Of a stretch of DNA of 59,609 nucleotides, positions 720 through 34,691 are shown piece by piece; the first letter of the stretch is position 1; every line of letters starts with the position of its first letter. Origin of the DNA: Candidatus Gastranaerophilales bacterium (GTDB lineage: Bacteria > Bacillota > Clostridia > Lachnospirales > Lachnospiraceae); assembly GCA_023663225.1 (NCBI GenBank), contig JAMPHU010000014.1, forward strand, positions 1-59,609, read 5' to 3'. Both the position numbers and the translations under genes were made by a program. The notes beneath the pieces were generated by a model. That model had not been told where the DNA came from, did no database searches, and worked only from the letters and a program-made list of their open reading frames with translations.

Positions 720-977
720 ATGGGATATCAACTGCGCTATGCGGCGGGGCGATATTGGCTTTTGGATATCGATCAGGAGGGAGTCCCCTACAAAAAGCCG
801 CTGTCTCTGAATGAGGTGGGCGCCGATATCTGGAATATGATCCAACAGGGATTTGCGAAGGAAGAAATCGTGGAGGCGCTTTGTCGGGAATATCATGTGG
901 AGAAGGACATGGTGGAGGACGACGTGGAACAGTTTTTGGAGATGCTTGCCAAAAGACAACGGGGTGAACAAGGATGA
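720..977 (+). CDS. PqqD family protein
   Basis: This 85-residue protein has the compact PqqD winged-helix pattern: an N-terminal beta strand pair (residues 3-30), LSLNEVGADIWNMI, and a helical half ending FLEMLAKR. PqqD domains bind leader regions of ribosomally made peptides and hand them to modifying enzymes. The start is ATG at 720 behind AAAGGAG (704-710). It overlaps the next gene by 4 bases, so it is translationally coupled to the pel-like operon. That is an unexpected place for a peptide chaperone, since Pel synthesis is not known to use one. A second PqqD domain sits in the kinase fusion at 30468-31628, so the partner could be the leader-bearing proteins at 26256-27371. The family call is firm; the partner is inferred. 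Confidence 0.85.
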   Translation: MGYQLRYAAGRYWLLDIDQEGVPYKKPLSLNEVGADIWNMIQQGFAKEEIVEALCREYHVEKDMVEDDVEQFLEMLAKRQRGEQG

Positions 978-8729: not shown

Positions 8730-8740
8730 TGGAGGTAGGT

Positions 8741-10215: not shown

Positions 10216-11679
10216 GTGGCGGGAATTGGTGTCAGACTTAACAGAATATACAGTAAAAACACAATTATTACAAGCTTGTTTGGATTTGGATACAGTATGA
10301 TGATCACAGTGGCTCCTATGTTTTTTGTGATCTTGGCGGTCATAGTGATGCAGCAGACGCTTGGTTTTTCTAAAGTGGGATATGCGGACAGGGAACTGTA
10401 TACCAGTACCATACTCTATATCTTTATCTTTGCGTTGTTGACGGCCTCGCCCTTTAACGCGGTGCTGTCTAAATATATGTCGGATGTGATCTACAAGGAT
10501 CAGTACGACGATATTCTCCCCTGCTATTACGTGGGGCTGGTGATCAATATAGGGGCGAGCTGGCTGTTGGGAGTTCCCTTTTGCATATGGGAATATGTAG
10601 TGGGGAAAGTGTGGCTTCCCTATGTGTTGATGGGGTTTTGCGGTTATATCGCCCTAGTGTTGGTGTTCTACACCGAGCTATATCTGTCTATCTGTAAGGA
10701 TTACAAGAAAATATCGCTATTTTTTATGATCGGCATGAGTATCGCCATACTGTTGTCTTTGGTGTTGGTATATTTGATGGACATGGCGGTGACCAACGCT
10801 ATGCTTTTGTCGATGGATATAGGGTTTATGGTGATCGCCTGTCTGGAATTTGCCCTGATTCGAAGTTATTTTAGAGAGAACAGCCTCAAATACAAGGAGG
10901 TGCTGCAATATTTAAAAAAATATTGGCAGCTAATGGTGACCAATTTCCTTTACACGTTTGGGATGTTTGTACATAATTTTGTATTCTGGACCACGGATAT
11001 GCACACGGTGGTGGCCAAATCCTTTGTGTCCATGACCTCCTACGACATGGCCACCTGTCTGGCGATGTTCACTAATATTACGACCACAGTTATCTTTATC
11101 TCCAGAGTGGAGATGCATTTCCATGAGCGCTATAAACTCTACTCTGAGGCGGTGATCGGCGGCAGAGGCATGGATATTGAGAGCACGAAAAAGAGAATGT
11201 TTATGCAGCTTTCCGAGGAGTTGATGAACTTGGCGCGTATCCAGTTTATCATTTCTGCGTCGATGTACTTACTGTTTACCATCTTGCTTCCGCGGTTGGG
11301 GATGGGGGGCATGGTTATGAAAATATATCCGTGCCTGACGGCGGGCTATTTTATCCTGTTTATTATGTATTCGGCCCTGATCTTTCTCTATTATTTTAAT
11401 GATCTGATCGGCGCCATGATGATGTCGGGCGCTTTCTGTGCCACGACCTTGGTGGCGAGCATTGTGGCGACCCATCTGCCTTCCATCTGGTATGGTCTGG
11501 GGGTAGTGATCGGATCCCTTGTGGGGTGGGGCGTGGCGTATCACAGACTCAGACTGATGGAGAAGGGGCTGGATGTGCATATTTTTTGTAACGGAAACAT
11601 TATGGAGAAGGGAATCGGTGAGAGACCTTCCAACAAGGTGTTTGACCGCACCCAACAGAAGAAGGAGGTAGAAGCTTAA
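10216..11679 (+). CDS. pelG: PelG polysaccharide transporter (MOP superfamily)
   Basis: PelG is the polytopic partner of PelF that moves the Pel chain across the membrane. The start is GTG 10216, nine bases after GGAGGG (10201-10206); no ATG in frame is near. The 487-residue protein opens MAGIGVRLNRIYSKNT, a typical PelG start, and has about 12 membrane helices with MOP-flippase spacing. The stop codon overlaps the ATG of the next gene by one base. Together with PelD, PelE and PelF it makes the minimum Pel synthase; no outer-membrane PelB or PelC is present, as expected for a Gram-positive cell. Confidence 0.92.
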   Translation: MAGIGVRLNRIYSKNTIITSLFGFGYSMMITVAPMFFVILAVIVMQQTLGFSKVGYADRELYTSTILYIFIFALLTASPFNAVLSKYMSDVIYKDQYDDILPCYYVGLVINIGASWLLGVPFCIWEYVVGKVWLPYVLMGFCGYIALVLVFYTELYLSICKDYKKISLFFMIGMSIAILLSLVLVYLMDMAVTNAMLLSMDIGFMVIACLEFALIRSYFRENSLKYKEVLQYLKKYWQLMVTNFLYTFGMFVHNFVFWTTDMHTVVAKSFVSMTSYDMATCLAMFTNITTTVIFISRVEMHFHERYKLYSEAVIGGRGMDIESTKKRMFMQLSEELMNLARIQFIISASMYLLFTILLPRLGMGGMVMKIYPCLTAGYFILFIMYSALIFLYYFNDLIGAMMMSGAFCATTLVASIVATHLPSIWYGLGVVIGSLVGWGVAYHRLRLMEKGLDVHIFCNGNIMEKGIGERPSNKVFDRTQQKKEVEA

Positions 11680-13303: not shown

Positions 13304-14083
13304 ATGCAGGACACACAGAGAGATTTGTTGATCATCATTCCTGCCTACAATGAAGCGAAGAATATCAATTTCGTGTTGGAACAGTTGGAACAACCGGAGA
13401 TTGAGAGGATTGCGGATGTATTGATTATGAATGACGCTTCCTCGGACGGCACAAATTGGATTGGAAAGGAACATCGCCATACGGTGGTGTCCCACGTATT
13501 CAATTTGGGGTATGGCAGTGGATTGCAGTTAGGTTACAAATATGCGGTGCGCAGGGATTACAAGTATGTAATTCAAATGGATGCGGATGGCCAGCATGAT
13601 GCGTGCAATATTCCGGTGCTTTACGAGCGTCTGAAGACGCCGAACGAGGAGGGAAAGTGTCCGGATATCGTGTTGGGTTCCCGATTTTTAAAGGAAAGTT
13701 CGCCATATCACGTAGGTGTGGTGAAGAAGTTTGCGTATGTATTATTCCGCATTTTGATCAAGCTGGGGACAGGTCGGAGGATTGCCGATCCCACGACAGG
13801 TTTGCAGGGATTGAGCAGAAGGGCGTTTTTGTTCTACTCCCAGTACAATCATTTTGATGAAAAGTATCCCGATGCCAATATGATCATGCAAATGCTGCTC
13901 CTTGGATTTCGCGTGGAGGAAGTGCCGGCGGTGATGTATGCCAGAATAAGGGGCGTCAGTATGCATTCGGGATTAAAGCCCGTAATCTATATGTTTCGCA
14001 TGTTTTTTTCCATCATAGCGGTGTGGGTTAGAATACGGCTGTACAAAGTGGATATGGGGGTAACGGATGAAACCATTCAATAA
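13304..14083 (+). CDS. Glycosyltransferase family 2 (polyprenyl-phosphate type)
   Basis: A 259-residue GT-A enzyme with LLIIIPAYNEAKNI at the N-terminus, DASSDGT, and QMDADGQHD, which carries the metal-binding DxD. It lacks C-terminal membrane helices and resembles dolichol-phosphate mannosyltransferase-like GT2 proteins, which often pair with DUF2304 proteins such as the one at 11679-12062. It probably charges a lipid carrier or transfers a sugar to it. Its end overlaps the next gene by 17 bases. Confidence 0.87.
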   Translation: MQDTQRDLLIIIPAYNEAKNINFVLEQLEQPEIERIADVLIMNDASSDGTNWIGKEHRHTVVSHVFNLGYGSGLQLGYKYAVRRDYKYVIQMDADGQHDACNIPVLYERLKTPNEEGKCPDIVLGSRFLKESSPYHVGVVKKFAYVLFRILIKLGTGRRIADPTTGLQGLSRRAFLFYSQYNHFDEKYPDANMIMQMLLLGFRVEEVPAVMYARIRGVSMHSGLKPVIYMFRMFFSIIAVWVRIRLYKVDMGVTDETIQ

Positions 14084-15380
14084 CATATTTGGGAAAAAGT
14101 GGAAATTTCAAAAAGTTGGTTTTGTGGAGAGCGTAGAAGAGTTACAGAATCCTGCAAGAGGATGGTATCAGATACACACTTTTCAGGCGGAAAAGCGTTT
14201 CTCGGCCAAGGAACTGGAGTGGTGCTTGAGCAAGGAAAACACATTGGCGTTAGTGTTGATCGACATCGGAGCATACAAGGATCGGGGCTTAGACGAGGAA
14301 TGTCTCGCCAACATGGATAAAATTTTAAAATTTTTTGTAGACTGGCAGATGGACATTATATTGCGGATCGTCTACGACCATGAGGGGAGAGCGCAGGAGA
14401 GAGAGCCATTTTATTTCACACAGGTGCTTGATCATTTGGCGCAGCTTGGCGATCTGCTCTCTAAATATGCGGATCATATCTATGTCTTTCAGGGAATGTT
14501 GGTGGGAAATTGGGGGGAAATGCACACCTCGCGTTTCCTGGCGACAGATAAGTTGAAACAGTTGGCAAGCCTATTGAGAGGATATTTGGGTGAGGACCCT
14601 TTTCTGGCAGTCCGCAGACCTATGTATTGGCGGGCGCTGCATCCGTCCGTCTGTGGAAACAGAGAGTTTTCAGAGACGCGAGTAGGACTTTTTGACGACG
14701 CCATCTTTGGTTCCGCGACGCATATGGGGACATTTGGCACAAAGCCCGAGGAAGAGATGGGATGGGACGACCCTTGGGCTGTGGAGGAAGAGCTTGCCTT
14801 TGAGGAAAAGCTGTGCCAGTATGTGCCGCAGGGGGGCGAGGCTGTCTATGAGGCGGGCGCAGCGGAGAATCGCTCTCTGCAGGAGACGGTGGAGCGCCTG
14901 AGAAAGATGCAAGTGAGCTATCTAAACTGTATTTATGATGAAAGGCAACTGAATCTGTGGAAACATATGACCTGGAAGGGAGAAGATGCCTGGGCGGGGA
15001 TGAACGGATACGACTATATTGGCAGACATTTGGGCTATCGTTTCTGTGTGAGAAATGCCAGTGTGAGTTTTCTCAGAGATTCGGAGACCACTTGTCTTTG
15101 GGAGATTTCCGTGGAAAACACCGGATTTGCCAGATGTTATCAAGAGACGGAGGTCTGGCTGGAATGGACGGATGAACAGGGGAGAAACCGCACGGAGAAG
15201 GTGGATCTGCCCCTGCATTATATTCTGCCGGGGGAAATCAAGAAAGGGACCTGTTCTACCGCCCCTGCCTTGGGAAGCGTATATTTGTATGCCAAAAGCA
15301 AAAAAGACGATACAGCAATCTATTTTGCCAATGAGACAGCGGGCAAGAGAGGCGTCCTTATCGGGAGGCTGAATCAATAG
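14067..15380 (+). CDS. DUF4874/DUF4832 protein, cytosolic version
   Basis: A 437-residue protein with the DUF4874 opening LQNPARGWYQIHTF, a TIM-barrel-like middle (VLIDIGAYKDRGL, QGMLVGNWGEMHTS) and a C-terminal DUF4832 region. Such pairs are thought to be glycoside-hydrolase-like. No signal peptide is visible, which is odd for a polysaccharide-degrading enzyme. The gene overlaps the GT2 by 17 bases and overlaps tail to tail by 23 bases (15358-15380) with a signal-bearing paralogue on the other strand. Function is unknown; barrel fold and family are moderately sure. Confidence 0.75.
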   Translation: MKPFNNIFGKKWKFQKVGFVESVEELQNPARGWYQIHTFQAEKRFSAKELEWCLSKENTLALVLIDIGAYKDRGLDEECLANMDKILKFFVDWQMDIILRIVYDHEGRAQEREPFYFTQVLDHLAQLGDLLSKYADHIYVFQGMLVGNWGEMHTSRFLATDKLKQLASLLRGYLGEDPFLAVRRPMYWRALHPSVCGNREFSETRVGLFDDAIFGSATHMGTFGTKPEEEMGWDDPWAVEEELAFEEKLCQYVPQGGEAVYEAGAAENRSLQETVERLRKMQVSYLNCIYDERQLNLWKHMTWKGEDAWAGMNGYDYIGRHLGYRFCVRNASVSFLRDSETTCLWEISVENTGFARCYQETEVWLEWTDEQGRNRTEKVDLPLHYILPGEIKKGTCSTAPALGSVYLYAKSKKDDTAIYFANETAGKRGVLIGRLNQ

Positions 15381-16860
15381 TCACGGTTCCCAGGAAAATG
15401 TTTCCCGCATCAGGAATGTCAGCATTGGCAAACCCTATGGTCTGTCCGGTGTACGGGTCGGACAGGGAAAAATAGATGTCATAAGTTCCGTCTGCAAATT
15501 GGCTCAAGTCAAGCGGCAGGGAGAAGGTGCTTTTACTGCCTGCCCGAATCGTGCGGTTGTCAAGAAAAACTGTGAGAGATTGCGAGGCTCCCGTCTCTGT
15601 CTCTTCCAGCGTGAGAGCGGCTTCAAAGAGACGATAGGCGGGGGCAAAGCCGGTATTCCATATTGTCAGGGACAGACTGGCGGAGGAAAGGTCCCGTTTG
15701 TTCCAGGAGAGGCGGGAGGAGCTCAACACATAACGGTAGCCTAAGTGGGCGTTGATATAATCGTAGCCGCTTATGCCGTCAAAACAGTCATCCTCTTGGT
15801 ATATCGTATCCTTCCATTTATTCAGGACGGCGCTGTCATAGGCAATATTCAGGTAGGTTATGTGCATGCGCCGCAAGTCGGGGATGGCGTTTTCCAAGTC
15901 ATTGTAGGCATTGTTTATGACGACTTCGCCGCCGTTTGGGACATATTGGCATAAGTATTCCTGGAAGGCAAGCTCCTCTGATCGTGTGCCCGCTTTGGCG
16001 GGATTGTCGCTGTCCTCAAAGGGCGTGTCATCATAGGTGCCAAGATCAAATACGGAACCTAACATGCCGTCATTATACAGCCCCAGTCTGGCGGCAAGTT
16101 CTGAGCCAAACGCATTTTCTTCCGTGACGGGCAATTTGGTGTCCAGGATACCGCGCAGTTGAGCCGGTGTGCGGACAGAGAGAAAGATGGCGGGGGAGGT
16201 GACGGAGGCCAAGTGCGTGATAAGCTGTCGGTTATGCTCCGTGGAGCCGTAGTGGGGGGAGGTCATCTCTCCATAGTTGCCCGCGAAGGTGCCCTGCGTG
16301 ATCAATATCGCGTCGGCGTATTTGTTTACGATGGGGGCAGTCTGATCCATGTGCCGCAGGATTTGGTCGATGCTTGCAGGTTCCGTCTTATTGGCCCTGC
16401 CGTCCCAATCGTAGAGAAAGCGCAGGATCACTTGCTTTTTGGCAGTGTAGAGCTCCGATAGGATCGCGTCCAACTGCGCCAGTGCGGCGTCGCTTAAATC
16501 CGAGTTGGAATAATTCTTCAGATTAATTTCGATCAACATAAGCTGCGTGTCACAGAAATCTATGCGTTGCCTGCATTGGTCAGCGGCAGTTGCAGCGTCC
16601 TCTTCCGAGAGGGCAAAGCCGTACATGTGATAGAAGCCGCAGTAGGGATTATCCAGAGAAACGTTTCCCTCCACATAGGAGACGGACTGGTAAGTCGCTG
16701 TCGGGAAAGATCTTTTGTATTTTGGTATGCTTGCGATCTCGTCGTCTGTCGGCTGTTCCATAATGGTTTCGCCAAAGAGAGCGGTTTCAGGGCGCGCTGA
16801 CTGGAAGAAGAGACAGAGAAAAACGATAGGGCAGGCGAGCAGAAATATTTTTTTTAACAT
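15358..16860 (-). CDS. Exported DUF4874/DUF4832 protein
   Basis: A 500-residue paralogue of the protein at 14067-15380. Residues 1-24 form a signal peptide or anchor (KKIFLLACPIVFLCLFF), so this copy works outside the cell. It has SLDNPYCGFYHMYGF near residue 72, QGTFAGNYGEMTSPHYG, NGGEVVINNAY and a C-terminal beta domain, matching DUF4874 then DUF4832. It is on the opposite strand to all pel-like genes and starts beside a perfect palindrome (16881-16911) shared with the divergent flippase gene. A role as matrix glycoside hydrolase is inference. Confidence 0.75.
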   Translation of the reverse strand: MLKKIFLLACPIVFLCLFFQSARPETALFGETIMEQPTDDEIASIPKYKRSFPTATYQSVSYVEGNVSLDNPYCGFYHMYGFALSEEDAATAADQCRQRIDFCDTQLMLIEINLKNYSNSDLSDAALAQLDAILSELYTAKKQVILRFLYDWDGRANKTEPASIDQILRHMDQTAPIVNKYADAILITQGTFAGNYGEMTSPHYGSTEHNRQLITHLASVTSPAIFLSVRTPAQLRGILDTKLPVTEENAFGSELAARLGLYNDGMLGSVFDLGTYDDTPFEDSDNPAKAGTRSEELAFQEYLCQYVPNGGEVVINNAYNDLENAIPDLRRMHITYLNIAYDSAVLNKWKDTIYQEDDCFDGISGYDYINAHLGYRYVLSSSRLSWNKRDLSSASLSLTIWNTGFAPAYRLFEAALTLEETETGASQSLTVFLDNRTIRAGSKSTFSLPLDLSQFADGTYDIYFSLSDPYTGQTIGFANADIPDAGNIFLGTVTIDSASR

Positions 16861-16911: not shown

Positions 16912-16942
16912 TTAGCTTATGTTTTATATGGGAGGAGACAAG

Positions 16943-19714
16943 GTGGTAGAAAAGAGCAGGACGGAGAACTCTGCGCGAAACGCCGCCGTTGCGATGACAG
17001 CGAGGATCATTGCCATCGTTGCGGGGTATCTCACCAGAGTGATATTCACACATACGCTTGTCGAGGATTATGTGGGCATCAATGGCCTGTTCACCGATAT
17101 TCTGAAAGTGCTGGCACTGTCGGAACTGGGAGTGGGAACAGCGATCACTTATGCATTGTACAAGCCTATTTCTGAGCGTGATATAGAAAAACAGAAGACC
17201 TTGATGAGAATGTACCGACAATTTTACCGGATTGTGGCCGGTATCGTGCTGGCGGGGGGACTTTTGGTAATTCCGTTCATGGATGTTCTGATCAAGAATC
17301 AGCCGCAGGTGGAGCATTTGATTTTTATTTATCTGCTCTATCTGGCAAATTCCGTGTTCTCCTATCTGTTGATCTATAAGAGGACTCTGATAGATGCGCA
17401 TCAACTGAACTATATTGGCGTCCTGTATGAAATGTTTTTTTTGATCCTACAGAATGTGGTTCAAGTAGCAATCCTTTTGCTGACAGGTAATTTTATTTTA
17501 TTTGTGTCGGTTCAGCTTGTGTGTACCATCGCCAGCAATTACTGTGTCTCAAAGAGGGCAGATCGGATGTTTCCTTATCTGAGAGATCGTCAGGTGCAGG
17601 AGCTTCCGCGACAAGAGCGCCAGTCCATCTATCAGAATATCCGCGCCATGCTGATGCACAGGATCGGGGCAGTGCTGGTGAATAATACCGATAATATGCT
17701 GCTGTCCTCTATCGTGGGAATTGCCAGCGCGGGTCGTTATTCCAACTATTATCTGATCATCGGCTCAGTGAGGCAGGTGTTGAATCAAATTTTCCAAGGC
17801 ATCACAGCGAGCGTAGGGAATCTGGGTGTGGAGGAAGGTCGGGAGAGAGTGCGAAAAATTTTTGAATCCTCCTTCTTTTTAGGGCAGTGGTTGTTCGGAT
17901 TAGCGGCAATATGCCTGTTTGAGGCGATCGATCCCTTTGTGGAAATCAGTTTTGGCGCACAGTATGTTTTTTCCAGAGAAATCACCCTGATTTTATGCTT
18001 GAATTTCTATCTGACAGGGATGCGCCAGGCAGTGTTGGTCTTTCGGGATTCTCTGGGGCTATTCTGGTATGACAGATATAAGTCCATCGCGGAAGCGGTG
18101 GTCAATCTGGTGGTTTCGATCCTGTTGGGCATGTATATGGGCACGGCGGGAATCTTTTTGGGCACTATGGTCAGCACGGTAGCTACTTCGTTGTGGGTGG
18201 AACCTTATATCTTGTACAAGCACCGCCTTAAGGTGTCTTCGTTGCCCTATTTCCTGCGCTATGGCCTATATGCGGCAGTGACGTTTTTGCTGTGGGCAGG
18301 GGAGGATATCTTGTGTCAGCGTATCACGGGCAGTCTGTGGACGAGATGTATCCTTCGGGTGATCTTGTGTCTGGTTGTCACCAATCTGGCGTATTTGTTG
18401 CTGTATCACCGCACCAGAGAATTTGTGTTGTTAGCTGAAAAAGCGTGGGGTATTTTAAAGACCAAATGGTCGAATTGGTCAACGGCGGGGAAACAAGACA
18501 GCGGTGAGGAACCCTTTGGGCAGGAGGCGGAGCGCCTGCTCGCCATGCTGAGAGCAGAATTGAATGAGGAGAGGCAGGAGAAACAGGAGACAGCCCAAAG
18601 CGGCGAGATGTCAGACATGGACTGGGAACAGACCATTGCTATGGCAAAGCGTCACAGTGTACTGCCTTTGCTCTACGAACCCTTTGTAAGAGACTCACGC
18701 CTTTCGCAAAAGCAAAAGGAACTCATCACAACTCTTTCACAGAAAACGGTGCTGCAGAGTTATCATATCCTGTTTTACAGCAAATATTTGATCGGAAGGT
18801 TGGAGGCGAGAGGGATTCCCGTGGCGCTATTAAAGGGCGTTGGAGTCGCTTCCTTCTATCCGGTGCCGGAGCTTAGAAAAGCAGGAGATGTAGACCTGTT
18901 ATTGTTAGATCTCGAAAAGCTGCAAGAGGCGATTCGGGTTTTGGAGGAAAGCGGATGCCAAGTCAACAAAAAGCAGATTGCGCTGCACCATGTGGCGTTT
19001 CTCTCCGGTGAAGGGATGGAGGTTGAGCTTCATACGATGCTGGCGGAGCCGTTTGACAATAATCGGATCAACGATTACATCAAGGCGAAACTGCCGGAAT
19101 GTGGGAGGCAAATGCAGCGTATCGATGTGATGGGGGTAGAGCTTCCTGTTTTGACGCCCGACTTTTATGCCTATGAGCTGTTGCTTCACATGCTTCAGCA
19201 TTTTCTGAGAGAGGGATTTGGACTAAGGCTTCTGTGTGATTGGGTCGTATTTTGGAACCATGGGATGGAGGAAAAATATAGAGCACAGTATCTCATCCTG
19301 GTGAAGGAGAGCGGTGTGAAGGTTTTCTCCGATACGGTCACTTTGGCTTGTTGTAACTATCTCGGTTTGAAAGAAGAGTGTGTGGAATGGATGATGTTCC
19401 CCGAAGAGCTGGATGTGAGAGCATTTATGGCAGAGGTATTGGAGGCGGAGGAGTTTGGTAAATCTGCCTCCGACCGTATGGTGGCTCTACGGGGTGGTGG
19501 GATGATAGACTATATTCGAGAGTTCCATCATCAGATGCATTTGAATTTTCCGAGGGCGGGCAGGGTATTTCTGTTTTGGCCGGGCCTCTGGATCTTTACG
19601 CTGGCGAGATTCTTAAACAATAACCGTAAGATACGCAATGTCACAGTGGTTCCGATCTTGAAGAAGGCGAGAGAGAGAAGCAATCTGATCGCAAAGCTGA
19701 AATTGTGGGAGTAG
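16943..19714 (+). CDS. Wzx-type flippase fused to a NTP_transf_5-like nucleotidyltransferase
   Basis: The start is GTG 16943 behind GGGAGGA (16931-16937); an upstream in-frame ATG (16919) has no such site. Of 923 residues, about 1-500 are a polytopic MOP-family flippase (helices from AAVAMTARIIAIVAGYLTRV onward). About 540-920 resemble the NTP_transf_5 family, with LLPLLYEPF, VALLKGVG and RKAGDVDLLL, where D649 and D651 form the expected metal-binding pair. NTP_transf_5 proteins occur beside PqqD and HPr kinase-like genes in some lasso peptide loci. The fusion ties lipid-linked glycan export to nucleotidyl transfer in one chain, and I know of no described example. The substrate of the nucleotidyltransferase part is unknown. 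Confidence 0.82.
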   Translation: MVEKSRTENSARNAAVAMTARIIAIVAGYLTRVIFTHTLVEDYVGINGLFTDILKVLALSELGVGTAITYALYKPISERDIEKQKTLMRMYRQFYRIVAGIVLAGGLLVIPFMDVLIKNQPQVEHLIFIYLLYLANSVFSYLLIYKRTLIDAHQLNYIGVLYEMFFLILQNVVQVAILLLTGNFILFVSVQLVCTIASNYCVSKRADRMFPYLRDRQVQELPRQERQSIYQNIRAMLMHRIGAVLVNNTDNMLLSSIVGIASAGRYSNYYLIIGSVRQVLNQIFQGITASVGNLGVEEGRERVRKIFESSFFLGQWLFGLAAICLFEAIDPFVEISFGAQYVFSREITLILCLNFYLTGMRQAVLVFRDSLGLFWYDRYKSIAEAVVNLVVSILLGMYMGTAGIFLGTMVSTVATSLWVEPYILYKHRLKVSSLPYFLRYGLYAAVTFLLWAGEDILCQRITGSLWTRCILRVILCLVVTNLAYLLLYHRTREFVLLAEKAWGILKTKWSNWSTAGKQDSGEEPFGQEAERLLAMLRAELNEERQEKQETAQSGEMSDMDWEQTIAMAKRHSVLPLLYEPFVRDSRLSQKQKELITTLSQKTVLQSYHILFYSKYLIGRLEARGIPVALLKGVGVASFYPVPELRKAGDVDLLLLDLEKLQEAIRVLEESGCQVNKKQIALHHVAFLSGEGMEVELHTMLAEPFDNNRINDYIKAKLPECGRQMQRIDVMGVELPVLTPDFYAYELLLHMLQHFLREGFGLRLLCDWVVFWNHGMEEKYRAQYLILVKESGVKVFSDTVTLACCNYLGLKEECVEWMMFPEELDVRAFMAEVLEAEEFGKSASDRMVALRGGGMIDYIREFHHQMHLNFPRAGRVFLFWPGLWIFTLARFLNNNRKIRNVTVVPILKKARERSNLIAKLKLWE

Positions 19715-24954: not shown

Positions 24955-25098
24955 GCCTCTCATAGTGATTACTCGTTGGACAAAAAATGTCAAATGGCAT
25001 CAAATAAAGCAAAATGTATACTTGCAGAGGGAAACATGGACAATATACAAGACATCTTAGATAAGGATTATGAACTTGCTGATAAAAGGAGGATTGAC

Positions 25099-26079: not shown

Positions 26080-26154
26080 GGTGATTATTATGGTAATAGT
26101 TCAGAAGTCAAATGACTAATTATTACAAAAAATGTAATATTTGTTAAAAAGGAT

Positions 26155-26183
26155 TTGACGAATGTACCTTGTAGGTGTAAACT
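26155..26183 (+). promoter_or_regulatory. Sigma-A promoter of the first leader-bearing protein
   Basis: TTGACG (26155-26160), 17 bases, TAAACT (26178-26183). The same promoter and the whole following 5' leader (about 26129-26265) recur nearly unchanged at 26804-26940. Confidence 0.75.
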
Positions 26184-26255
26184 GAAAGTACTAGAGAAGG
26201 AACGGCAAAAGCAGCGTACATAAAATAAGAATTATAATGTGGGAGGTTGATTGCG

Positions 26256-26669
26256 ATGAAAGAGTATGTGAAGCCGGTTGTAGTGGTAAATGATGAAGTC
26301 GCTGAGGGCGTGTATACAGCGAGTGGAGCTGGCGAAGATTGCTATACAGTTACCACAAGGATTCATCAAACGCCGGAAACAGGAAGAGGAGATTATCGTA
26401 TTCAGGTGGATGCTAAGCATGCTGCGGGGGATAACCACCATAGTGGGAAGCAGACACTGGTTTTGTACTTCAACCAGCCTGTTACGTACTCTTGGTCCAA
26501 TGGTACACTGTCTGAGGGTGACGGTACGAGTACGATTAAGATTGATTATACGTATCATAATAATGCGTATGATAATATCGGGTTGGGCGATGTGATTGTT
26601 GAGGCTGATGCAGGCTTGAGTGTTACCGGAGCACAGTTGATTTGTAATCACGATTGCGGACAGCATTGA
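26256..26669 (+). CDS. Small leader-bearing beta-rich protein 1
   Basis: A 137-residue protein from ATG 26256, nine bases after GGGAGG (26241-26246). Residues 1-24 (MKEYVKPVVVVNDEVAEGVY, then TASG) have no hydrophobic core and so are not a Sec signal, yet they match residues 1-24 of the second protein at 26931-27371. The rest is beta-rich with C29 near its start and C130 and C134 near its end, plus NQPVTYSWSNGTLSEGDGT and YTYHNNAYDN, a spacing like a CBM2-type carbohydrate-binding beta sandwich. I infer a leader peptide recognised by PqqD-type partners, removed at about ASG-A, and export by the ABC transporter downstream. Product and activity are unknown. Confidence 0.75.
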   Translation: MKEYVKPVVVVNDEVAEGVYTASGAGEDCYTVTTRIHQTPETGRGDYRIQVDAKHAAGDNHHSGKQTLVLYFNQPVTYSWSNGTLSEGDGTSTIKIDYTYHNNAYDNIGLGDVIVEADAGLSVTGAQLICNHDCGQH

Positions 26670-26684
26670 GTGGTGGTTGTAATA

Positions 26685-26730
26685 TTGAAAAACCCTGCAG
26701 GAACCATATGGATTCTGCAGGGTTTTTCAA
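26685..26730 (+). terminator. Terminator between the two leader-bearing genes
   Basis: TTGAAAAACCCTGCAG and CTGCAGGGTTTTTCAA pair with a short loop (26685-26730), a 16-bp perfect stem. It isolates the first small gene as its own transcript. Confidence 0.85.
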
Positions 26731-26828
26731 TTCGTCCGGTATTCGCACAATGACACTTGCTATGTTCTTTGTTAAAAGCAATTATTTAAAAAATGTTACA
26801 AAAATTGTAATATTTGTTAAAAAAGGAT

Positions 26829-26857
26829 TTGACGAATATCTCTCGTAGGTGTAAACT
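26829..26857 (+). promoter_or_regulatory. Sigma-A promoter of the second leader-bearing protein
   Basis: TTGACG (26829-26834), 17 bases, TAAACT (26852-26857), in a region almost identical to that upstream of 26256. Each small gene therefore has its own copy of one promoter and 5' leader. Confidence 0.75.
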
Positions 26858-26930
26858 AAAAGTACTAGAGAAGGAACGGCAAAAGTAACGTACATAAAAT
26901 TAATAATTATAATGTGGGAGGTTGATTGCG

Positions 26931-27371
26931 ATGAAAGAGTATGCTAAGCCAGTTGTATTGGCGAACGATGAACTTGCTGAAGGCGTATACGCGGCAAGCG
27001 GTGCGGAGACATCTACAGACTGCTGGACGGTAGAGGCTGTGTCTGTACAGGATTGGAATGGTTCACATCATGTGTTTGAGGTTCGGTGTAGGCACAGTAC
27101 GGAAGTTGTGCATATCTCAACCAATACAGATGTGACGCTTACATTCAGTAGTGCTATTTCAGATGCTTATTCAGAATTTGCTGCATCATTCAGCGGCAGT
27201 ACGGTGACAGTTAGCCGTGAGCTTCATGCCAACGCTTACAATTCCGGCGATAACATGACCTATAAGGTGTGGGTTCAGGCTGCGGACGAGGCGACCACAA
27301 AGGCGATTACCTGTACCCAGGCTGTCATTACCTGCACCCATGCTGTCAATGTACAGGGTGGTTTTGACTAA
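26931..27371 (+). CDS. Small leader-bearing beta-rich protein 2
   Basis: A 146-residue protein from ATG 26931, behind the same GGGAGG spacing as the first. Residues 1-25 read MKEYAKPVVLANDELAEGVY then AASGA, matching the first protein's leader, while the core is diverged. Conserved features are D-C-W-T-V at about 30 (DCYTV in the first), NAYN near 102 and a C-terminal AVITCTH against AQLICNH. Cysteines are at 31, 53, 128 and 135. Strong leader and promoter conservation with a variable core is what one expects of different cargos for one processing and export machine. A CBM2-like beta sandwich is my best fold guess. Confidence 0.75.
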   Translation: MKEYAKPVVLANDELAEGVYAASGAETSTDCWTVEAVSVQDWNGSHHVFEVRCRHSTEVVHISTNTDVTLTFSSAISDAYSEFAASFSGSTVTVSRELHANAYNSGDNMTYKVWVQAADEATTKAITCTQAVITCTHAVNVQGGFD

Positions 27372-27398
27372 GTTGTTTTGGCAGAATGAGAAGACTTT

Positions 27399-27434
27399 AA
27401 AAACAGCACCGCCTGTGAAAGGCGGTGCTGTTTT
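27399..27434 (+). terminator. Terminator after the second leader-bearing gene
   Basis: AAAACAGCACCGCC and GGCGGTGCTGTTTT form a perfect 14-bp stem with a 7-base loop. The upstream A run and downstream T run would let it work in both directions. Confidence 0.85.
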
Positions 27435-27541
27435 GAGTTTAACATAAGGGCGGTACGCGGAGCGTGCTGACCGTTGTTGGCGCCAACGTCTAACCGGAAG
27501 ATGGATTACGGTCGAGGAAAGTTGCACAGGAGTGAAAAAGA

Positions 27542-28603
27542 ATGGTTAGCTGTAATGTGGAATTGAATGGCAAAGTAATTTTGGTCACGGGAGCTGCCGG
27601 ATTTATCGGCTCGAATCTGGTCAAAAGGCTATATCGGGATTACGAGGGCATCACTGTGATCGGCATCGATAACATGAATCCTTATTATGATGTGAGGATC
27701 AAGGAGAGCAGACTGGCGGAATTGAAGCAAAATGATACCTTTCTTTTTGTGCGGGGCTCCATTGCGGATAAGTCCACTGTCATGGAGCTCTTTGAGAAGT
27801 ACCATCCGTCAGCGGTAGTCAATATGGCCGCTCAGGCCGGCGTGAGATACAGCATTATCAATCCGGATGCCTATATTGAGAGTAATCTGATTGGGTTTTA
27901 TCATTTACTGGAAGCTTGCCGCCGCTATCCGGTGGAGCATTTTGTCTATGCGTCGAGCAGCAGTGTGTATGGCGTCAATCAAAAGGTCCCTTATTCTGTG
28001 GAGGATAAGGTTGATCATCCGGTTTCTCTCTATGCCGCTACCAAGAAAAGCGACGAGCTGATGGCTCATGCCTATGCGAAACTTTACAATATCCCGTCAA
28101 CGGGATTGCGATTTTTTACGGTTTACGGTCCTGCCGGACGACCGGATATGGCTTATTTTGGTTTTACGGACAAGTTGAGAGCCGGAAAAACCATTCAGAT
28201 ATTTAATTACGGTAACTGTAAGCGTGATTTTACTTATATAGACGATATTGTGGAAGGGGTGTCCCGCGTTCTGCGGCACGCACCCGAAAAAGCGGACGGA
28301 GAAGACGGACTGCCCATTCCGCCGTACAAATTATACAATATCGGGAACAATAGGCCGGAGAATCTGCTTGACTTCGTGCAGATCTTGTCGGAGGAGCTTG
28401 TGAGGGCGGGCGTGTTGTCTGCGGATTATGACTTTGAATCGCACAAAGAGCTTGTGCCAATGCAGCCAGGCGACGTGCCTATTACTTACGCGGATACGTC
28501 TGCATTGGAGGCGGATTTTGGTTTTAAGCCCAATACGAGTTTGCGGAAGGGATTGCGGAAGTTTGCCGAATGGTACGCGGCATTTTATATGCCGATGTCC
28601 TAA
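27542..28603 (+). CDS. NAD-dependent nucleotide-sugar epimerase (UDP-glucuronate 4-epimerase-like)
   Basis: A 353-residue extended SDR. It has the NAD turn VTGAAGFIGSNLVKR, MAAQAGVRYSI, YASSSSVYG and the catalytic YAATKKS (Y-x3-K). The sequence NPYYDVRIKE after the second strand is typical of UDP-glucuronate 4-epimerases (CapI/GAE type) rather than GalE. Unlike the SDR domain of the PelD fusion, all catalytic residues are present. It would supply a C4-epimerised UDP-sugar for the exopolysaccharide. It sits between the leader-protein genes and the ABC exporter, 65 bases before the latter. Confidence 0.88.
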   Translation: MVSCNVELNGKVILVTGAAGFIGSNLVKRLYRDYEGITVIGIDNMNPYYDVRIKESRLAELKQNDTFLFVRGSIADKSTVMELFEKYHPSAVVNMAAQAGVRYSIINPDAYIESNLIGFYHLLEACRRYPVEHFVYASSSSVYGVNQKVPYSVEDKVDHPVSLYAATKKSDELMAHAYAKLYNIPSTGLRFFTVYGPAGRPDMAYFGFTDKLRAGKTIQIFNYGNCKRDFTYIDDIVEGVSRVLRHAPEKADGEDGLPIPPYKLYNIGNNRPENLLDFVQILSEELVRAGVLSADYDFESHKELVPMQPGDVPITYADTSALEADFGFKPNTSLRKGLRKFAEWYAAFYMPMS

Positions 28604-28650
28604 ATATTCCATTTCTCCCTGACTGAGCCGGTAGACGGAGGAGCTCTCAC

Positions 28651-30471
28651 CTGTTTGATCAAAAGAAAATGCGGAAGGAACCAAAGGACATGAAGGAGAA
28701 GCTGGCATTTTATATCGGGCGCATCAAAGCCGGCGCCGTGCAGGAGCGGCTGAAGCAGACGATCTGGATCTACCAGTACGCCAGGCATTATTGGCTGCAC
28801 ATGATCTTTTATACGGCGTTAGGGATGGTGACGACGGTGGTGGCGCTGCTCACCAGCCTGGTGAGCAGGGATCTAGTGGATATCATCACCGGACATCAGA
28901 CCGGAGAGGTGATCAAGACCTTTGGTATGATGATCGGTCTGAATGTATTTAGCACGCTGCTCAATATGGGATCCAGTTACGCTTCCAGCTATATCAGCAT
29001 GAAGGTGGACGCGGAGATCAAGGCGGACATTTTTGACAAGATCCTGGTCACGGATTGGGAGTCTCTGACCAACTATCACACGGGCGATCTGCTGACCCGC
29101 TGGAGTTCCGACGCCTCCACCATCTCCGGCGGCGTGCTGAATTTTATTCCCAATATGGTGATCTATCTCTTTCGATTCTTAAGCGCTTTTGCCATGGTGG
29201 TATATCAGGACTGGACCTTTGCGGTGTTTGCCTTTTTGGGGATGCCCGTGAGTCTGATTCTGTCCAAGACGCTGATGAATCGTATGGTCAACAATAATAA
29301 GCGCAGCGCTGCCTTGGGCGCGAAGATGTCCGGCTTCAACCAGGAGACTTTCTCCAATATCCAGACTATCAAGGCATTTGATCTGGTGAAACTCTACATT
29401 GCCAGGCTAAAACAGCTCCAGCAGGAGTACATCACCATGAAGCTTGACTTCCAGAAGATGTCTATGGGAACCTCGATCCTACTCTCGACGGTGGGATTGA
29501 TCGTGTCCTACGCCTCCTACGGATGGGGCATCTACCGCGTGTGGAGCGGCGCCATCAGCTATGGCACCATGACCATGTTTTTGGGATTGTCGGGCACCTT
29601 GACAGGGACGCTGCACAATCTGACTTCCCTGGTGCCTTCAGCCATCAGTCTGACTACCTCCGCGGGGCGTCTCATGGATATTGTGGAGATGCCCAGGGAG
29701 GATTACAGCCACGACGACGAGGTGGCGGTATTCGGCAAGCGTTATCAAAAAGACGGCATCAGCCTGTGTCTGGAAAATGTGCGGTACGCATACCGGACAG
29801 GCACACGGGTGTTTGCGGCCGCCTCCTTGGAGGCGCATCCCCATGAGATTGTGGCGTTGGTGGGCCCCTCCGGAGAGGGCAAGACGACCATGCTGCGTCT
29901 GATCCTGTCTCTCATGCCCATACAGGGCGGCAGAGCCGTTTTGAGCGGCGGGGAGACGAGCGGGAAAGGAGAGGGGGAATGGGTGGAGCTGTCTCCCTCC
30001 ACCAGAAAGCTCTTCTCCTATGTGCCCCAGGGCAATACCATGTTTTCCGGCACCATCGCGGAAAATATGCGCAATGTAAAGCCGGACGCCACGGAGGCGG
30101 AGATCGTGGAGGTGTTGCAGCTTGCTTGTGCGTGGGAGTTTGTGGAGAAGCTGCCGGACGGGATTGACAGCGAGATCAAGGAGCGCGGGGGAGGCTTTTC
30201 CGAAGGGCAAGCTCAGCGTTTGTCGATCGCCAGGGCGTTGCTGCGCAAGTCTCCTATCCTGTTGTTGGACGAGGCCACATCCGCGCTGGATGTGGCGACC
30301 GAGAGAAAGGTGCTCAAGAATATCATGCAGGATAAGTACCCCCGCACCTGCATTGTGACCACCCATCGCCCCACTGTTTTGAGCGCTTGCAGTCGGGTCT
30401 ATGCCATCCGCGATAAGGGCTGCGTGGTGTTAGATCAGGAGCAGATCGATGAGATGGTCAGGGGATTTTAG
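28651..30471 (+). CDS. ABC exporter (membrane domain plus ATPase), no peptidase domain
   Basis: The exporter is a single chain. A CTG at 28651 lies nine bases after GGAGGAG (28637-28643); the next in-frame ATG (28669) has no ribosome site, so the start is uncertain, and I use CTG (606 residues). Six membrane helices lie in the first half (MIFYTALGMVTTVVALLTSL, and so on), followed by the ATPase with Walker A GPSGEGKT, the signature FSEGQAQR in place of LSGGQ, and Walker B PILLLDEATSALD. There is no N-terminal C39 peptidase, so leader removal would need another enzyme; the S24/S26-type peptidase at 32030-32485 is the obvious candidate. It fits export of the small leader-bearing proteins, which is inference. 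Confidence 0.85.
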   Translation: MFDQKKMRKEPKDMKEKLAFYIGRIKAGAVQERLKQTIWIYQYARHYWLHMIFYTALGMVTTVVALLTSLVSRDLVDIITGHQTGEVIKTFGMMIGLNVFSTLLNMGSSYASSYISMKVDAEIKADIFDKILVTDWESLTNYHTGDLLTRWSSDASTISGGVLNFIPNMVIYLFRFLSAFAMVVYQDWTFAVFAFLGMPVSLILSKTLMNRMVNNNKRSAALGAKMSGFNQETFSNIQTIKAFDLVKLYIARLKQLQQEYITMKLDFQKMSMGTSILLSTVGLIVSYASYGWGIYRVWSGAISYGTMTMFLGLSGTLTGTLHNLTSLVPSAISLTTSAGRLMDIVEMPREDYSHDDEVAVFGKRYQKDGISLCLENVRYAYRTGTRVFAAASLEAHPHEIVALVGPSGEGKTTMLRLILSLMPIQGGRAVLSGGETSGKGEGEWVELSPSTRKLFSYVPQGNTMFSGTIAENMRNVKPDATEAEIVEVLQLACAWEFVEKLPDGIDSEIKERGGGFSEGQAQRLSIARALLRKSPILLLDEATSALDVATERKVLKNIMQDKYPRTCIVTTHRPTVLSACSRVYAIRDKGCVVLDQEQIDEMVRGF

Positions 30472-31628
30472 TTCAAAAATTGGTCGATCCGATCTTTTAT
30501 GACAGTCACAGCGGTATCCTTTATCGTACAGTGCAGCTTACAGATCAGGATATGGGAAGTCAGCCGCTCCACCAATGTGAGGTTGTGCCGCAGCATTTCG
30601 CTTGTCCAGGCGGGACTGATCAGGCGTTGCTGTACTGATAAGATCTGTCGGTCGCGGGAAAGCTCTTCCACATGATCGTCGGGCGATTGTTTGAGCAGTA
30701 TGATGCCGCCCAAGGGATGGGAGGCGTTGTCAAAAATGCCGGAAGTGCCGCACCAGGGGATGCCAAGGACTGTGCTTGCCTGCTCCCTTGGAGCGATCAG
30801 ATTCAGATCGCCGTTGATAAGCGGGCTCTTAAGCAGGCGGTGCCAGAGGTTGGTGTGGGTGGATTTGCCGGTGCCGGACGGTCCGGAAAATAGCCATATC
30901 TTCTCCCGATAGAGCAGGGACGCAGAGTGAAGGGCGATCCTGTCATGGCGTTGGGCCAGATAGAGGAAAACCAAGCGGATCGCGTGGAAAAGATCTTCGT
31001 GGAAGGACGCTGAAAAGGGGGGCGCGCAGTAAAAGACGACTTGCGCTGCATCCTTGGACAGGTGCGCTTCAAAAATCTGGGGCGCGGCTGGAAAGAGCAG
31101 AATGTAAAGGCTGCCGCTGTCGATCACCACGAGATCCCTGTGGCGCAAAATGACCTGCCCGTTGAGATGATGAGAGGGCGCGCTGGGACATAAAAAAATG
31201 GTTTGATGTACGGTGGCTTGCGTCTGGGTCCGGAAGGGATCGAACTGTTCCGGGAAAGCGTCCGCTGGGCCGCGCAGACGCAGATGCAGTCCTGCTATGG
31301 AGACGTATCCGGCCTCCGGCAGAGAGGAGAGGGCGCAAGGAAGGGGAGCCTCACTGTCGTTCAACATGCCGCGGTCTGTCAATTCCTTTAAGAATTGTCT
31401 GATATCTTCTCTGAGATGGTCCTTGTCCGCCTCGGGCATTTCGTAGTGCGCCGCGCAGTCACAGATCAGCTCTTCCTCGTTACATTCCTGCGATAGTCTG
31501 TTCCAGAGATATTCTCCGGTCTCGTTGAGTCTCATGCCGCGCAGAATGTCCGCCTGTGTCTGTCCGTAGGGGAGCAGATAGGGGACGTCGGCTAATTTTT
31601 CCAGGTGATAACGGTTATTGCGTTTCAA
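30468..31628 (-). CDS. PqqD domain fused to an HPr kinase-like domain
   Basis: The best start is TTG (complement of 31626-31628) behind GGGAGG (complement of 31635-31640); the longer frame upstream runs into the repeat at 31731-31835. Of 386 residues, 1-92 are a PqqD-like domain (YLLPYGQTQADILRGMRLNE..EDIRQFLKELTDRG). Residues 220-386 resemble HPr kinase/phosphorylase, with H234, the P-loop SGPSGTGKST (248-257) and LINGDLNLI. Such PqqD and HprK-like pairs tailor lasso precursors, where the kinase phosphorylates the peptide. Here there is no lasso protease or cyclase. It converges on the ABC exporter with a 4-base overlap at the stops. Its likely target is a leader-bearing protein, by inference. 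Confidence 0.82.
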   Translation of the reverse strand: MKRNNRYHLEKLADVPYLLPYGQTQADILRGMRLNETGEYLWNRLSQECNEEELICDCAAHYEMPEADKDHLREDIRQFLKELTDRGMLNDSEAPLPCALSSLPEAGYVSIAGLHLRLRGPADAFPEQFDPFRTQTQATVHQTIFLCPSAPSHHLNGQVILRHRDLVVIDSGSLYILLFPAAPQIFEAHLSKDAAQVVFYCAPPFSASFHEDLFHAIRLVFLYLAQRHDRIALHSASLLYREKIWLFSGPSGTGKSTHTNLWHRLLKSPLINGDLNLIAPREQASTVLGIPWCGTSGIFDNASHPLGGIILLKQSPDDHVEELSRDRQILSVQQRLISPAWTSEMLRHNLTLVERLTSHILICKLHCTIKDTAVTVIKDRIDQFLN

Positions 31629-31730
31629 GGTTTTCCTCCCTGTCTTATGGTTTGTACGTTGATAAGATGGCATCCTCTTGTTGGGAAAGGCGGCAAGTCT
31701 ATTCAGCCTTGAAATAGTTGCCGAGAGTGT

Positions 31731-31835
31731 CATTGTGCGGACGATATATTCCAATGCAGACACGCTTTCGCTGCACCTCGCTCGTAATAATGGCATCGCT
31801 AGCGTCTGCTTTGGAATATATCATCCGCACAATTC
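31731..31835. repeat. Dispersed inverted-repeat element (copy C), short inner part
   Basis: Left arm 31731-31766 and right arm 31801-31835 are inverted repeats with few mismatches (for example AGCGTCTGCTTTGGAATATA on the right). Between them lies only about 34 bases; the CATAAG/CTAAG inner hairpin found in copies B and D is missing. The right arm matches the start of the window and the left arm matches the end of the window. Confidence 0.85.
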
Positions 31836-31971
31836 GGATTGCAACATCAGGCAAAACCCTGATATTGTCGGTTGCCACCCCGTTGGAGCGAGACAATCTG
31901 ACAACCTGAAAAGGCTGAATCAGTTACGGCAAATAAAATATAACACAGAAAAGCAAAATACACAATGAAAA

Positions 31972-32000
31972 TTGACGTGACGAAGGGAAAATTGTATACT
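31972..32000 (+). promoter_or_regulatory. Consensus sigma-A promoter of the S24/S26 peptidase gene
   Basis: TTGACG (31972-31977), 17 bases, TATACT (31995-32000), 30 bases before the ATG. It is one of the best promoters in the window. Confidence 0.75.
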
Positions 32001-32029
32001 GATAGCTAGAGAGAAAGAAGGGATTTTTC

Positions 32030-32485
32030 ATGCAAGATATTGAACAGTTGTTGACGGAGGGGCGTTCGGTCCGCTTTTTTCCCCAGGGATACAGTATGTA
32101 TCCGCTTTTTGTGCCCGGGCGGGACGAAGCGATAGTGGCGCCGGTGCGGGCGGATGAGCTGCGGCGCGGGGATGTGGCGCTCTACCGCAGGGACGGAAGT
32201 ATTTTGGTGCTGCACCGTATCTGGAAGAGGGAGGGGGAACGCTTTTACCTGGTGGGCGACAATCAAAAGGAGATTGAAGGGCCGCTGCGTCCGGATCAGA
32301 TGAAAGGCGTCCTGGTGGAGATCATCCGCAAGGGGAGGCATTTTTCCGTGGATCATTTTTGGTATCGGGCGGCGTCCGGCATTTGGCTTTTTCTGCGGCC
32401 GCTGCGGCCTGTGATCTCTCGCTTTGCGGCGGGGTGTAAGCGGGTCGTTCGCAGGATGACAAAAATTTTTAACGGAATCTTATAA
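32030..32485 (+). CDS. S24/S26-type peptidase with a Ser/His dyad
   Basis: A 151-residue protein with the signal-peptidase fold pattern. GYSMYP places the nucleophile Ser22, and VLHRIW places His62 where bacterial SPase I usually has Lys, as in SipW and ER-type signal peptidases. DVALYRR and FYLVGDN fit boxes C to E of S26. A hydrophobic aromatic stretch lies near residue 115-130 (ASGIWLFLRPL), so membrane attachment would be C-terminal. It has its own promoter and is divergent from the PqqD-kinase gene. It is the best candidate to remove the AEGVYxASG leader, because the ABC exporter has no peptidase. Its true substrate is unproven. Confidence 0.78.
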   Translation: MQDIEQLLTEGRSVRFFPQGYSMYPLFVPGRDEAIVAPVRADELRRGDVALYRRDGSILVLHRIWKREGERFYLVGDNQKEIEGPLRPDQMKGVLVEIIRKGRHFSVDHFWYRAASGIWLFLRPLRPVISRFAAGCKRVVRRMTKIFNGIL

Positions 32486-33368: not shown

Positions 33369-33383
33369 GATAAAGATGAGAGT

Positions 33384-33434
33384 GGGGGCTGTCGCATTAT
33401 AGCCAAATCAGCTATTATGCGGCGGCCCCTTTTG
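33384..33434 (+). terminator. Terminator after the PocR-MCP gene
   Basis: GGGGCTGTCGCATTATAGC pairs with GCTATTATGCGGCGGCCCC (mismatches tolerated) around a CAAATCA loop and ends in TTTT at 33434. The ribosome binding site of the next gene follows soon after. Confidence 0.65.
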
Positions 33435-33455
33435 GTATGGAAAGAGGGCGAGTGT

Positions 33456-34631: not shown

Positions 34632-34662
34632 GAAAACGCTGATCAAAGCGTAGAGAATGTTC

Positions 34663-34691
34663 TTTACAAGGAGGCTTTGGCGAGGTATTAT
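34663..34691 (+). promoter_or_regulatory. Promoter of the transglutaminase-like gene
   Basis: TTTACA (34663-34668), 17 bases, TATTAT (34686-34691), 59 bases before the TTG start at 34751. Confidence 0.6.

Follow-up and report, generated by a model that had tools for sequence, protein, structure and literature searches.

The closest described relatives of the genes considered here direct the synthesis of linear polyphosphorylated peptides (LPP), a pathway of LppA, K, B, S, D and N encoded in capsule loci (Popov et al., Nat Commun, May 2026; PMC13381572). According to the main text of that paper, LppK phosphorylates core Ser3, near the cut, while leader cutting by LppS depends on the recognition element of ribosomally synthesized and post-translationally modified peptides (RRE and RiPP, respectively) and needs Ser, His and Asp (S29, H68, D93). 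In a model, Phe at position -3 contacts the peptidase, and the phosphoserine stays on the core. RREs of lasso and LPP pathways bind a YxxP motif (PMC13381572, PMC12710340). LPP loci are patchy in distribution, and the authors state that the final product was not identified and that its biological role is unknown. Here we compare these systems with a cassette on contig JAMPHU010000014.1, which was analysed as one whole contig of 59,609 bases (the window) and encodes two small proteins with a common leader, an ABC exporter, a PqqD/RRE-kinase fusion and an S26-like peptidase.

Two further known systems resemble parts of the window. Lasso loci of the paeninodin/pseudomycoidin type also combine an RRE, an HprK-like kinase, a nucleotidyltransferase and an ABC exporter, and the pseudomycoidin enzyme is described as adding hexoses to the phosphorylated Ser (PMC8498205). 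They differ from the cassette, which has an S26 peptidase and large cargo lacking a C-terminal Ser in the window. An earlier sequence-only reading of this DNA had drawn the parallel with lasso tailoring parts and considered the lasso protease and cyclase absent; indeed, neither a lasso macrolactam cyclase nor a B2 peptidase is among the Pfam matches of the 40 window proteins scanned. The same reading described the exporter as devoid of a peptidase domain, and its matches are to ABC_membrane and ABC_tran, with no C39 peptidase domain at E<=0.1. The lasso and C39 bacteriocin readings were rejected, as their enzymes are lacking. Gram-positive Pel clusters share with the window the PelF, PelG and DUF4832 genes, and in Roseburia the pel genes sit within a larger capsule-like cluster; the word 'PqqD' occurs nowhere in the main text of that description (PMC7112168).

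The likeness to LPP is the most extensive. Both systems have a leader peptidase resembling SipW/archaeal-type signal peptidases, an RRE, a kinase (called HprK-like in LPP), an NTP transferase, an MsbA-like exporter and a YxxP leader, both lack a cyclase, and both lie in polysaccharide loci. Thus the enzyme set, which the sequence-only reading had called undescribed, was published as LPP. However, the RRE is fused to the kinase here and is a discrete protein in LPP; the NTP transferase is fused to a flippase-like region in the window; the core is a domain of about 100–120 residues, compared with 45 residues for the expressed LppA core (precursors of 35–200 are allowed in PMC13381572); and the cassette is found in Lachnospiraceae, a name absent from the main text of that paper. 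The window leader ends in EGVYxASG, and the LPP leader in IxFETxxS. Since the LPP RRE is discrete and the window leader departs from the LPP consensus, the cassette is not LPP in the strict sense, although it would work like LPP. We consider it probable that it represents a form of the LPP-type RiPP pathway which is found in Lachnospiraceae and acts on small folded proteins and not on short peptides. The parts of the cassette, their linkage, the homology of the enzymes to LPP-type sets, the conservation of the leader and the assignment of one cargo type to CBM2 are shown at the level of sequence. Among the papers listed in searches of the open literature, none was recognised as describing the fused Lachnospiraceae form, and of those consulted only PMC13381572 presents the enzyme set; subscription papers and bioRxiv preprints lay mostly outside the search, so a description elsewhere is possible.

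Leader, recognition element, kinase and peptidase

The two small proteins, P0001 and P0002, share a leader of 24 residues. The best 12-residue Kyte-Doolittle mean within the first 30 residues is only 1.05 in P0001 and 0.78 in P0002, so the leader has no Sec-type core, in agreement with the sequence-only reading. At the DNA level the leader-coding parts of the two genes are identical at 57 of 75 bases and their upstream regions at 132 of 152 aligned columns, whereas the remainder of the genes is much less alike (190 of 397 columns). The leader is not a chance similarity: its profile reaches 2.3e-14 to 7.0e-16 within the genome of the window, where another cassette also holds a third leader gene. 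This second cassette, complete, is located on contig C100 (L033 6889-13984) and comprises a leader protein, ABC exporter, fusion and S26 genes, with flippase and NTP_transf_5 encoded as two genes.

Of 82 leaders 65 were aligned, and all of these agree at six positions (M1, Y4, P7, E17, S23 and G24); the 17 left out comprise 16 that are one or two residues longer or shorter and one (L130) of the usual length. In 89 aligned full leader proteins the Ser23 column contains Ser in 98%, whereas the next Ser column reaches 55% and the best Thr column 56%. As 87 of these 89 proteins, all from other loci, were chosen by the leader profile, the conservation of the leader is partly built in, but the lack of a second shared Ser is unaffected by this choice.

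The RRE half of the fusion finds its closest match in the PDB in TbiB1, a lasso RRE (7.4e-06 with the family profile). This likeness and the YxxP motif of the leader suggest that PqqD serves as the leader reader, as the sequence-only reading had proposed. The fusion family is marked by the conserved motifs HSxS, SGxGKSTH, NGDxN and PWxGxS. Its true start probably lies inside the open reading frame, near TTG 31628, because many relatives align only from residue 53–57 onward. In ten separate kinases the best non-generic Pfam matches were Hpr_kinase_C (0.045) and PEPCK_ATP (0.013), and the kinases of two unfused sets match, below cut-off in each case, the ScmC model and in one of them HprK_rel_B as well. 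A tree of 78 kinase domains, built from 51 of 52 aligned rows (L123 lacked the searched motif), three more fused kinases and 24 separate ones, groups the 54 fused kinases together with support of 94/83, which allows for a single fusion event; two fused kinases (L195, L196) lie on long branches and may be misplaced.

The same tree bears on the relation to LPP. Two Bacillota genomes of one genus carry two unfused sets in tandem. The first set (L234), beside FETxxS precursors, is matched weakly by the cassette profiles (S26 2e-06, kinase 4e-12, RRE 4e-07), and the second strongly (S26 3e-47, kinase 1e-51, RRE 4e-15). In the kinase tree every other set is far removed from the weakly matched one, and the fused-cassette kinases are thus distant from kinases beside FET-type precursors. 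The cassette is thus homologous to LPP-type machines yet forms a clade of its own.

Ser22 and His62 of the S24/S26-type peptidase, pointed out in the sequence-only reading, are present together with Asp77 in all 63 aligned sequences, the window's own included (rows selected by phmmer at E<1e-20). The three residues stand in motifs matching those of the SipW/archaeal-type signal peptidase I family (TIGR02228), but the window protein differs in that its hydropathy indicates no transmembrane stretch (maximum 19-residue mean 0.92), and it scores 30.3 bits against a family cut-off of 51.85; the peptidase of the unfused set L234 likewise remains below this cut-off. It aligns through the catalytic motifs with six peptidases of unfused sets, with the weakly matched set outside the alignment. 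A nickel-superoxide dismutase maturation protease was also considered (TIGR02754, weak match, 0.013) and dropped in favour of LPP.

The second PqqD and the NTP_transf_5 domain named by the sequence-only reading were both recovered (1.4e-15 and 2.5e-35). A discrete RRE occurs in 10 of 80 loci and in the window lies about 29 kb from the cassette. In four of the 80 (L090, L118, L119, L122) its gene abuts or overlaps the frame of the NTP_transf_5 gene, and in L054, L093 and L096 it adjoins the S26 gene. NTP_transf_5 is fused to a GT2 glycosyltransferase in L090 (14049-16388), L119 (15587-17905) and L122 (8774-11116), and to a Stealth protein in L091 (13571-15814); Stealth proteins transfer sugar phosphates. 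The adjacency of RRE and NTP_transf_5 genes and these fusions give a hint that the NTP_transf_5 enzyme encounters the leader protein and has glycans as substrates.

Linkage of the cassette and its distribution

The association of the parts was examined from several starting points. A scan of contigs that used only the fusion as query, with no regard to the leader, returned at least 565 relatives, of which the best 80 loci were kept. Among the matches listed, the closest relatives outside the window are on Acetatifactor or Lachnospiraceae contigs, and others come from Blautia luti, Anaerobutyricum hallii, Coprococcus catus, Fusicatenibacter saccharivorans and Eubacterium plexicaudatum. A profile made from 20 leaders in the first locus set detected a leader (E<=1e-4) in 64 of the 80 loci, at a median distance of 1.9 kb from the fusion. 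The ABC gene was present in 74, S26 in 62 and all three in 54, and 44 loci held a relative of the flippase half or of the NTP_transf_5 half of the joined protein. When only the 52 loci flanked by 6 kb or more on each side are considered, the numbers for leader, ABC, S26 and all three are 43, 50, 40 and 38, respectively. A pattern search in 13 loci lacking a clear leader added divergent leader-like proteins beside the ABC gene in five of the 52 full loci (L095, L115, L117, L120, L129), and four full-flank loci (L079, L086, L112, L128) yielded no leader in either the profile or the pattern search.

Starting from the cargo, a search of 61 genomes gave matches to P0002 at E<=1 in 19, all of which belong to the genus; the match is at E<1e-4 in 15 and doubtful in the other four. 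In stretches of up to 20 kb round 18 places, leader, ABC, fusion and S26 occurred together in 13; in L036, L047 and L048 the leader gene lies near contig ends, and in L049 and L050 no cassette was found. Since L035/L122, L038/L088, L039/L065 and L045/L057 were judged by their length to be the same contigs, the 18- and 80-locus sets are not summed.

A sample of the family comprised 250 genomes from 249 genera and hence almost one per genus. In this sample 16 genomes gave a match to the leader profile, and 62 gave one to the fusion profile at E<=1e-10. Most of the latter matched only as separate kinase or PqqD pieces; in 14 genomes the fusion match was at E<1e-100 over nearly the whole length (this threshold and that of E<=1e-4 were chosen after the tables were seen). 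Leader and strong fusion coincide in 13 genomes, i.e., 13 of the 14 with the fusion (Fisher p 4e-18); when two further genomes with full-length fusion matches (G083 and G109) are counted, the leader is present in 13 of 16 fusion genomes (p 2e-16). Among the genomes with a leader and no strong fusion, G273 has a cassette in which the kinase was matched in two pieces (L198), G107 gives a partial leader match, positions 1–15, with an unfused set elsewhere (L197), and the G206 genome is 68% complete. In 398 Bacillota genomes the leader (E<=0.001) or a full-length fusion was found only in the window's own and in none of the 397 others. The sequence-only reading had set beforehand the test of whether its leader accompanies the fusion, S26 and the exporter; these counts bear it out, and a leader common far from PqqD, HprK and S24/S26 genes, which it had named as the contrary outcome, did not occur in the family and Bacillota genomes.

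Separate RRE and kinase genes were seen in L185, L187, L188, L190, L191, L194, L197 and L232-L238. Most of these loci have S26 and/or ABC genes, and their precursors are of other kinds; those in L190, for example, have leaders with WxxP and AASG. The unfused RRE/kinase sets form a wider family in Bacillota.

Cargo domains and polysaccharide surroundings

Behind the leader follows what looks by sequence like a folded, beta-rich domain of about 100–120 residues. The cargo was sorted by eye into types A–E, with type A accounting for 31 and type B for 27 of 87 leader proteins. Profile comparison indicates that types A and B are homologous (96.6%) and that the six proteins of type D are CBM2 domains (97.5% against 29 CBM2 domains of the same bacterial family); Pfam CBM_2 (PF00553) was matched in 5 of 89 leader proteins at E<=0.05, at best 1.1e-06. 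Type E may be akin to type B (62% one way, 13% the other), and type C showed no kinship to the other types. That domains with no demonstrable kinship carry the same leader speaks for its being recognised independently of the cargo. A CBM2 identity for types A and B was also considered, and the evidence for it is weak: the best match in a PDB profile search was 0.063, with all three matches being CBM2 domains.

The second largest cargo cluster (10 of 89) is a short leader protein with several Cys, in most members CDSxYM...CLGCPA, found in L064, L067, L068, L070, L076, L085, L091, L101, L110 and L126 and without kinship to the other cargo sets.

Two observations go beyond the sequence-only reading: one cargo type is CBM2, and the cassette sits in polysaccharide loci. 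Stealth, DUF4832/4874, GT2 or GT4 families are encoded in 43 of the 80 loci and in 32 of the 52 with full flanks, and in one of 20 evenly spaced control windows from one genome of the genus (Fisher p 1e-5), an effect whose size is inflated because the families were defined on the test loci. A PelG relative is present in 5 of 80 loci.

In the window itself (Table 1) a polysaccharide locus makes up the left part; it encodes PelF, PelG, glycosyltransferases and two DUF4874/DUF4832 proteins, and it also holds the discrete PqqD and the Wzx-like/NTP_transf_5 protein, whose N-terminal flippase-like part is matched weakly (NF041503, 0.002). The right part comprises the two small leader genes, a sugar epimerase, the ABC exporter, the fusion on the opposite strand and the peptidase. 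A PD-(D/E)XK transposase-like nuclease (24087-24887) separates the polysaccharide genes from the cassette. Related proteins (1.5e-13) are encoded on opposite strands at 24976-26079 and 20825-21787; they have no Pfam match at the thresholds used, and their relatives recur in other cassette loci. After the S26 gene, PocR-type sensor, DUF4015 glycosidase-like and transglutaminase-like proteins are encoded at 32589-36331, the transglutaminase family recurring in 8 of 80 loci.

Table 1. Positions of the cassette and of linked features in the window.
Feature	Coordinates	Strand	Evidence
P0001, small leader protein 1, 137 aa, cargo type A	26256..26669	+	31 relatives aligned
Leader of P0001, residues 1-24: Y4xxP7, E17, Y20, S23-G24	26256..26327	+	leader alignment
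P0002, small leader protein 2, 146 aa, cargo type B	26931..27371	+	27 relatives aligned
Region upstream of P0001 gene	26106..26255	+	near-duplicate of 26781-26930
Region upstream of P0002 gene	26781..26930	+	near-duplicate of 26106-26255
MsbA-like ABC exporter	28669..30471	+	PF00664 (ABC_membrane) 2.6e-35, PF00005 (ABC_tran) 4.8e-24
PqqD/RRE-kinase fusion	30468..31796	-	PF05402 1.8e-11, conserved Walker A SGxGKSTH
S26B/SipW-like leader peptidase (predicted), Ser22-His62-Asp77	32030..32485	+	TIGR02228 3.3e-07, below cut-off
Wzx-like flippase region fused to NTP_transf_5 (LppN-like)	16919..19714	+	PF14907 2.5e-35, residues 566-803
Second, discrete PqqD/RRE protein	720..977	+	PF05402 1.4e-15; TbiB1 8.1e-10; 9x8z 0.0023
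PelF glycosyltransferase, linked Pel-type cluster	8729..10195	+	NF038011 1.3e-107, above cut-off
PelG exopolysaccharide exporter	10216..11679	+	PF16933 1.9e-142
DUF4874/DUF4832 protein of polysaccharide locus	14067..15380	+	Pfam match
Second DUF4874/DUF4832 protein	15358..16860	-	Pfam match

Proposed pathway and its alternatives

The sequence-only reading had envisaged leader-dependent modification and export outside Sec, with tailoring by kinase and nucleotidyltransferase and leader removal by the S26 enzyme. The present data speak for such a scheme, in which we infer the chemical steps, their order, the cut site, the export and the function of the product. By homology, the PqqD/RRE half of the fusion would bind the leader at Y4xxP7. 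The HprK-like half may then phosphorylate a Ser near the leader-core border, most likely Ser23 of A-S-G, as this residue is conserved and the modified LPP Ser is close to the cut. By analogy with pseudomycoidin, the NTP_transf_5 protein may add a sugar or nucleotide to the Ser phosphate. The soluble S26 peptidase, with its Ser-His-Asp residues, would cut off the leader at the A-S-G border, the RRE probably presenting it, and the MsbA-like ABC protein, judging from the position of its gene, would export the product.

Where exactly the peptidase acts can be narrowed to three candidates. A cut after Tyr20 would make Ser23 core residue 3, as in LPP, and a cut after residue 22 would leave an aromatic residue at -3 and a small one at -1, comparable to F-3 / T-1 in LPP. 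A cut after Gly24 would follow the classical -3/-1 rule, in which case Ser23 would leave with the leader as a recognition residue and not as a modification site. The composition of the border fits the last candidate, with residue 22 mostly Ala or Gly, 24 Gly and 25 variable. Still, signal peptidase needs no conserved Ser at -2, and in LPP, as reported in the main text, the Phe that meets the peptidase in the model is at -3 and the phosphoserine remains on the core, so that we regard a cut after Gly24 (A/G-S-G|x) as plausible but lean against it. It concerns the cut only and is compatible with the rest of the proposed pathway. Of the earlier suggestion that the S26 enzyme cuts near ASG-A, the conserved A-S-G border thus stands, while the Ser is more likely to be the phosphorylation site and the cut may precede it.

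Several observations weigh against the LPP-type pathway proposed here. Most concern the enzymes. The Walker A motif and the PqqD domain of the fusion agree with the sequence-only reading, but its term HPr kinase-like finds no backing from Pfam (25 families listed) or NCBIfam, neither of which names the kinase half as HPr kinase. Profile comparison with 19 HPr kinase C-terminal domains likewise gave 17.7% over 27 P-loop columns, against 58.3% for an ABC ATPase control, leaving HprK-like as a candidate label. Asp77 of the peptidase follows His62 by 15 residues, whereas in LppS D93 follows H68 by 25, so equating the two is only a candidate assignment. As reported in PMC13381572, removal of the NTP transferase LppN changed nothing visible. 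The leader fits the YxxP and the next V/L of the LPP consensus YxxPxVLxHQxIxFETxxS, but the IxFET half is absent, and since Tyr4 (94%) and Tyr20 (93%) are likewise conserved in the 89 leader proteins, Ser23 is not the sole possible acceptor. The linkage is also incomplete: S26 was not found within the fetched flanks of 12 of the 52 full loci, including three from Butyrivibrio; G083 and G109 have full-length fusion matches (7e-62, 6e-60) without a leader, with no cassette near these fusions (L196, L195) and no Pfam match of the proteins at 0.001; and in G156, a strong fusion genome, no leader was found by the profile. Finally, types A and B, the cargo of the window, reach only 4.7% and 11.4% against the CBM2 profile, and the inflated contrast with control windows lessens the weight of the polysaccharide context.

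Some of these points could be accommodated if two separate systems were neighbours, namely leader-ABC-S26 export that works unaided by modification, and a kinase whose substrate is regulatory or unrelated. Such an arrangement would fit the weak HprK/PEPCK signals given by the kinase half and the occurrence in G083, G109 and G156 of fused proteins with no leader gene, and no modified product was seen here. The kinase is, however, fused to an RRE, and the fused forms cluster in the tree; of the 14 strong-fusion genomes in a sample with almost one per genus, 13 also carry the leader, and Ser23 is conserved beyond the needs of a plain cut site. On balance we find two independent systems unlikely. 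Another view would make the small proteins antagonistic, bacteriocin-like products of a lasso-like exporter, with the polysaccharide neighbourhood being coincidental. In its favour, LPP loci show the patchy distribution frequently seen for conflict genes (PMC13381572, main text), the cargo types vary, and one of them is short with several Cys. Such a role seems very unlikely to us, given that one cargo type is CBM2, that 31 and 27 of the 87 leader proteins belong to the conserved types A and B, and that polysaccharide genes are commoner than in control windows; moreover, no immunity-like family stood out among the scanned representatives of gene families common to at least 8 loci, some families being unscanned.

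For the LPP-type pathway acting on folded proteins, the product is likely to be a matrix protein that carries phosphate and possibly sugar and that binds to a Pel-like exopolysaccharide or decorates it, as the cargo is beta-rich, with one type being CBM2, and is made beside polysaccharide genes. A bolder version, which we offer as doubtful, is that the cassette makes protein-polysaccharide conjugates without Sec: the phosphate on the border Ser of a CBM-like protein would be joined to a glycan as a phosphodiester by NTP_transf_5 and the fused or neighbouring GT2/Stealth-type enzymes, and the conjugate would be exported to serve in a Pel-type matrix as a building block or cross-linker. If true, this would provide the first function for LPP-type pathways.

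The branch is present in many Lachnospiraceae of the gut, some of them named isolates. Its interpretable cargo turns the purpose of LPP-type pathways into a test of whether the exported protein binds, or is joined to, the polysaccharide made by the adjacent genes, and would also show RiPP-type tailoring on a folded domain.

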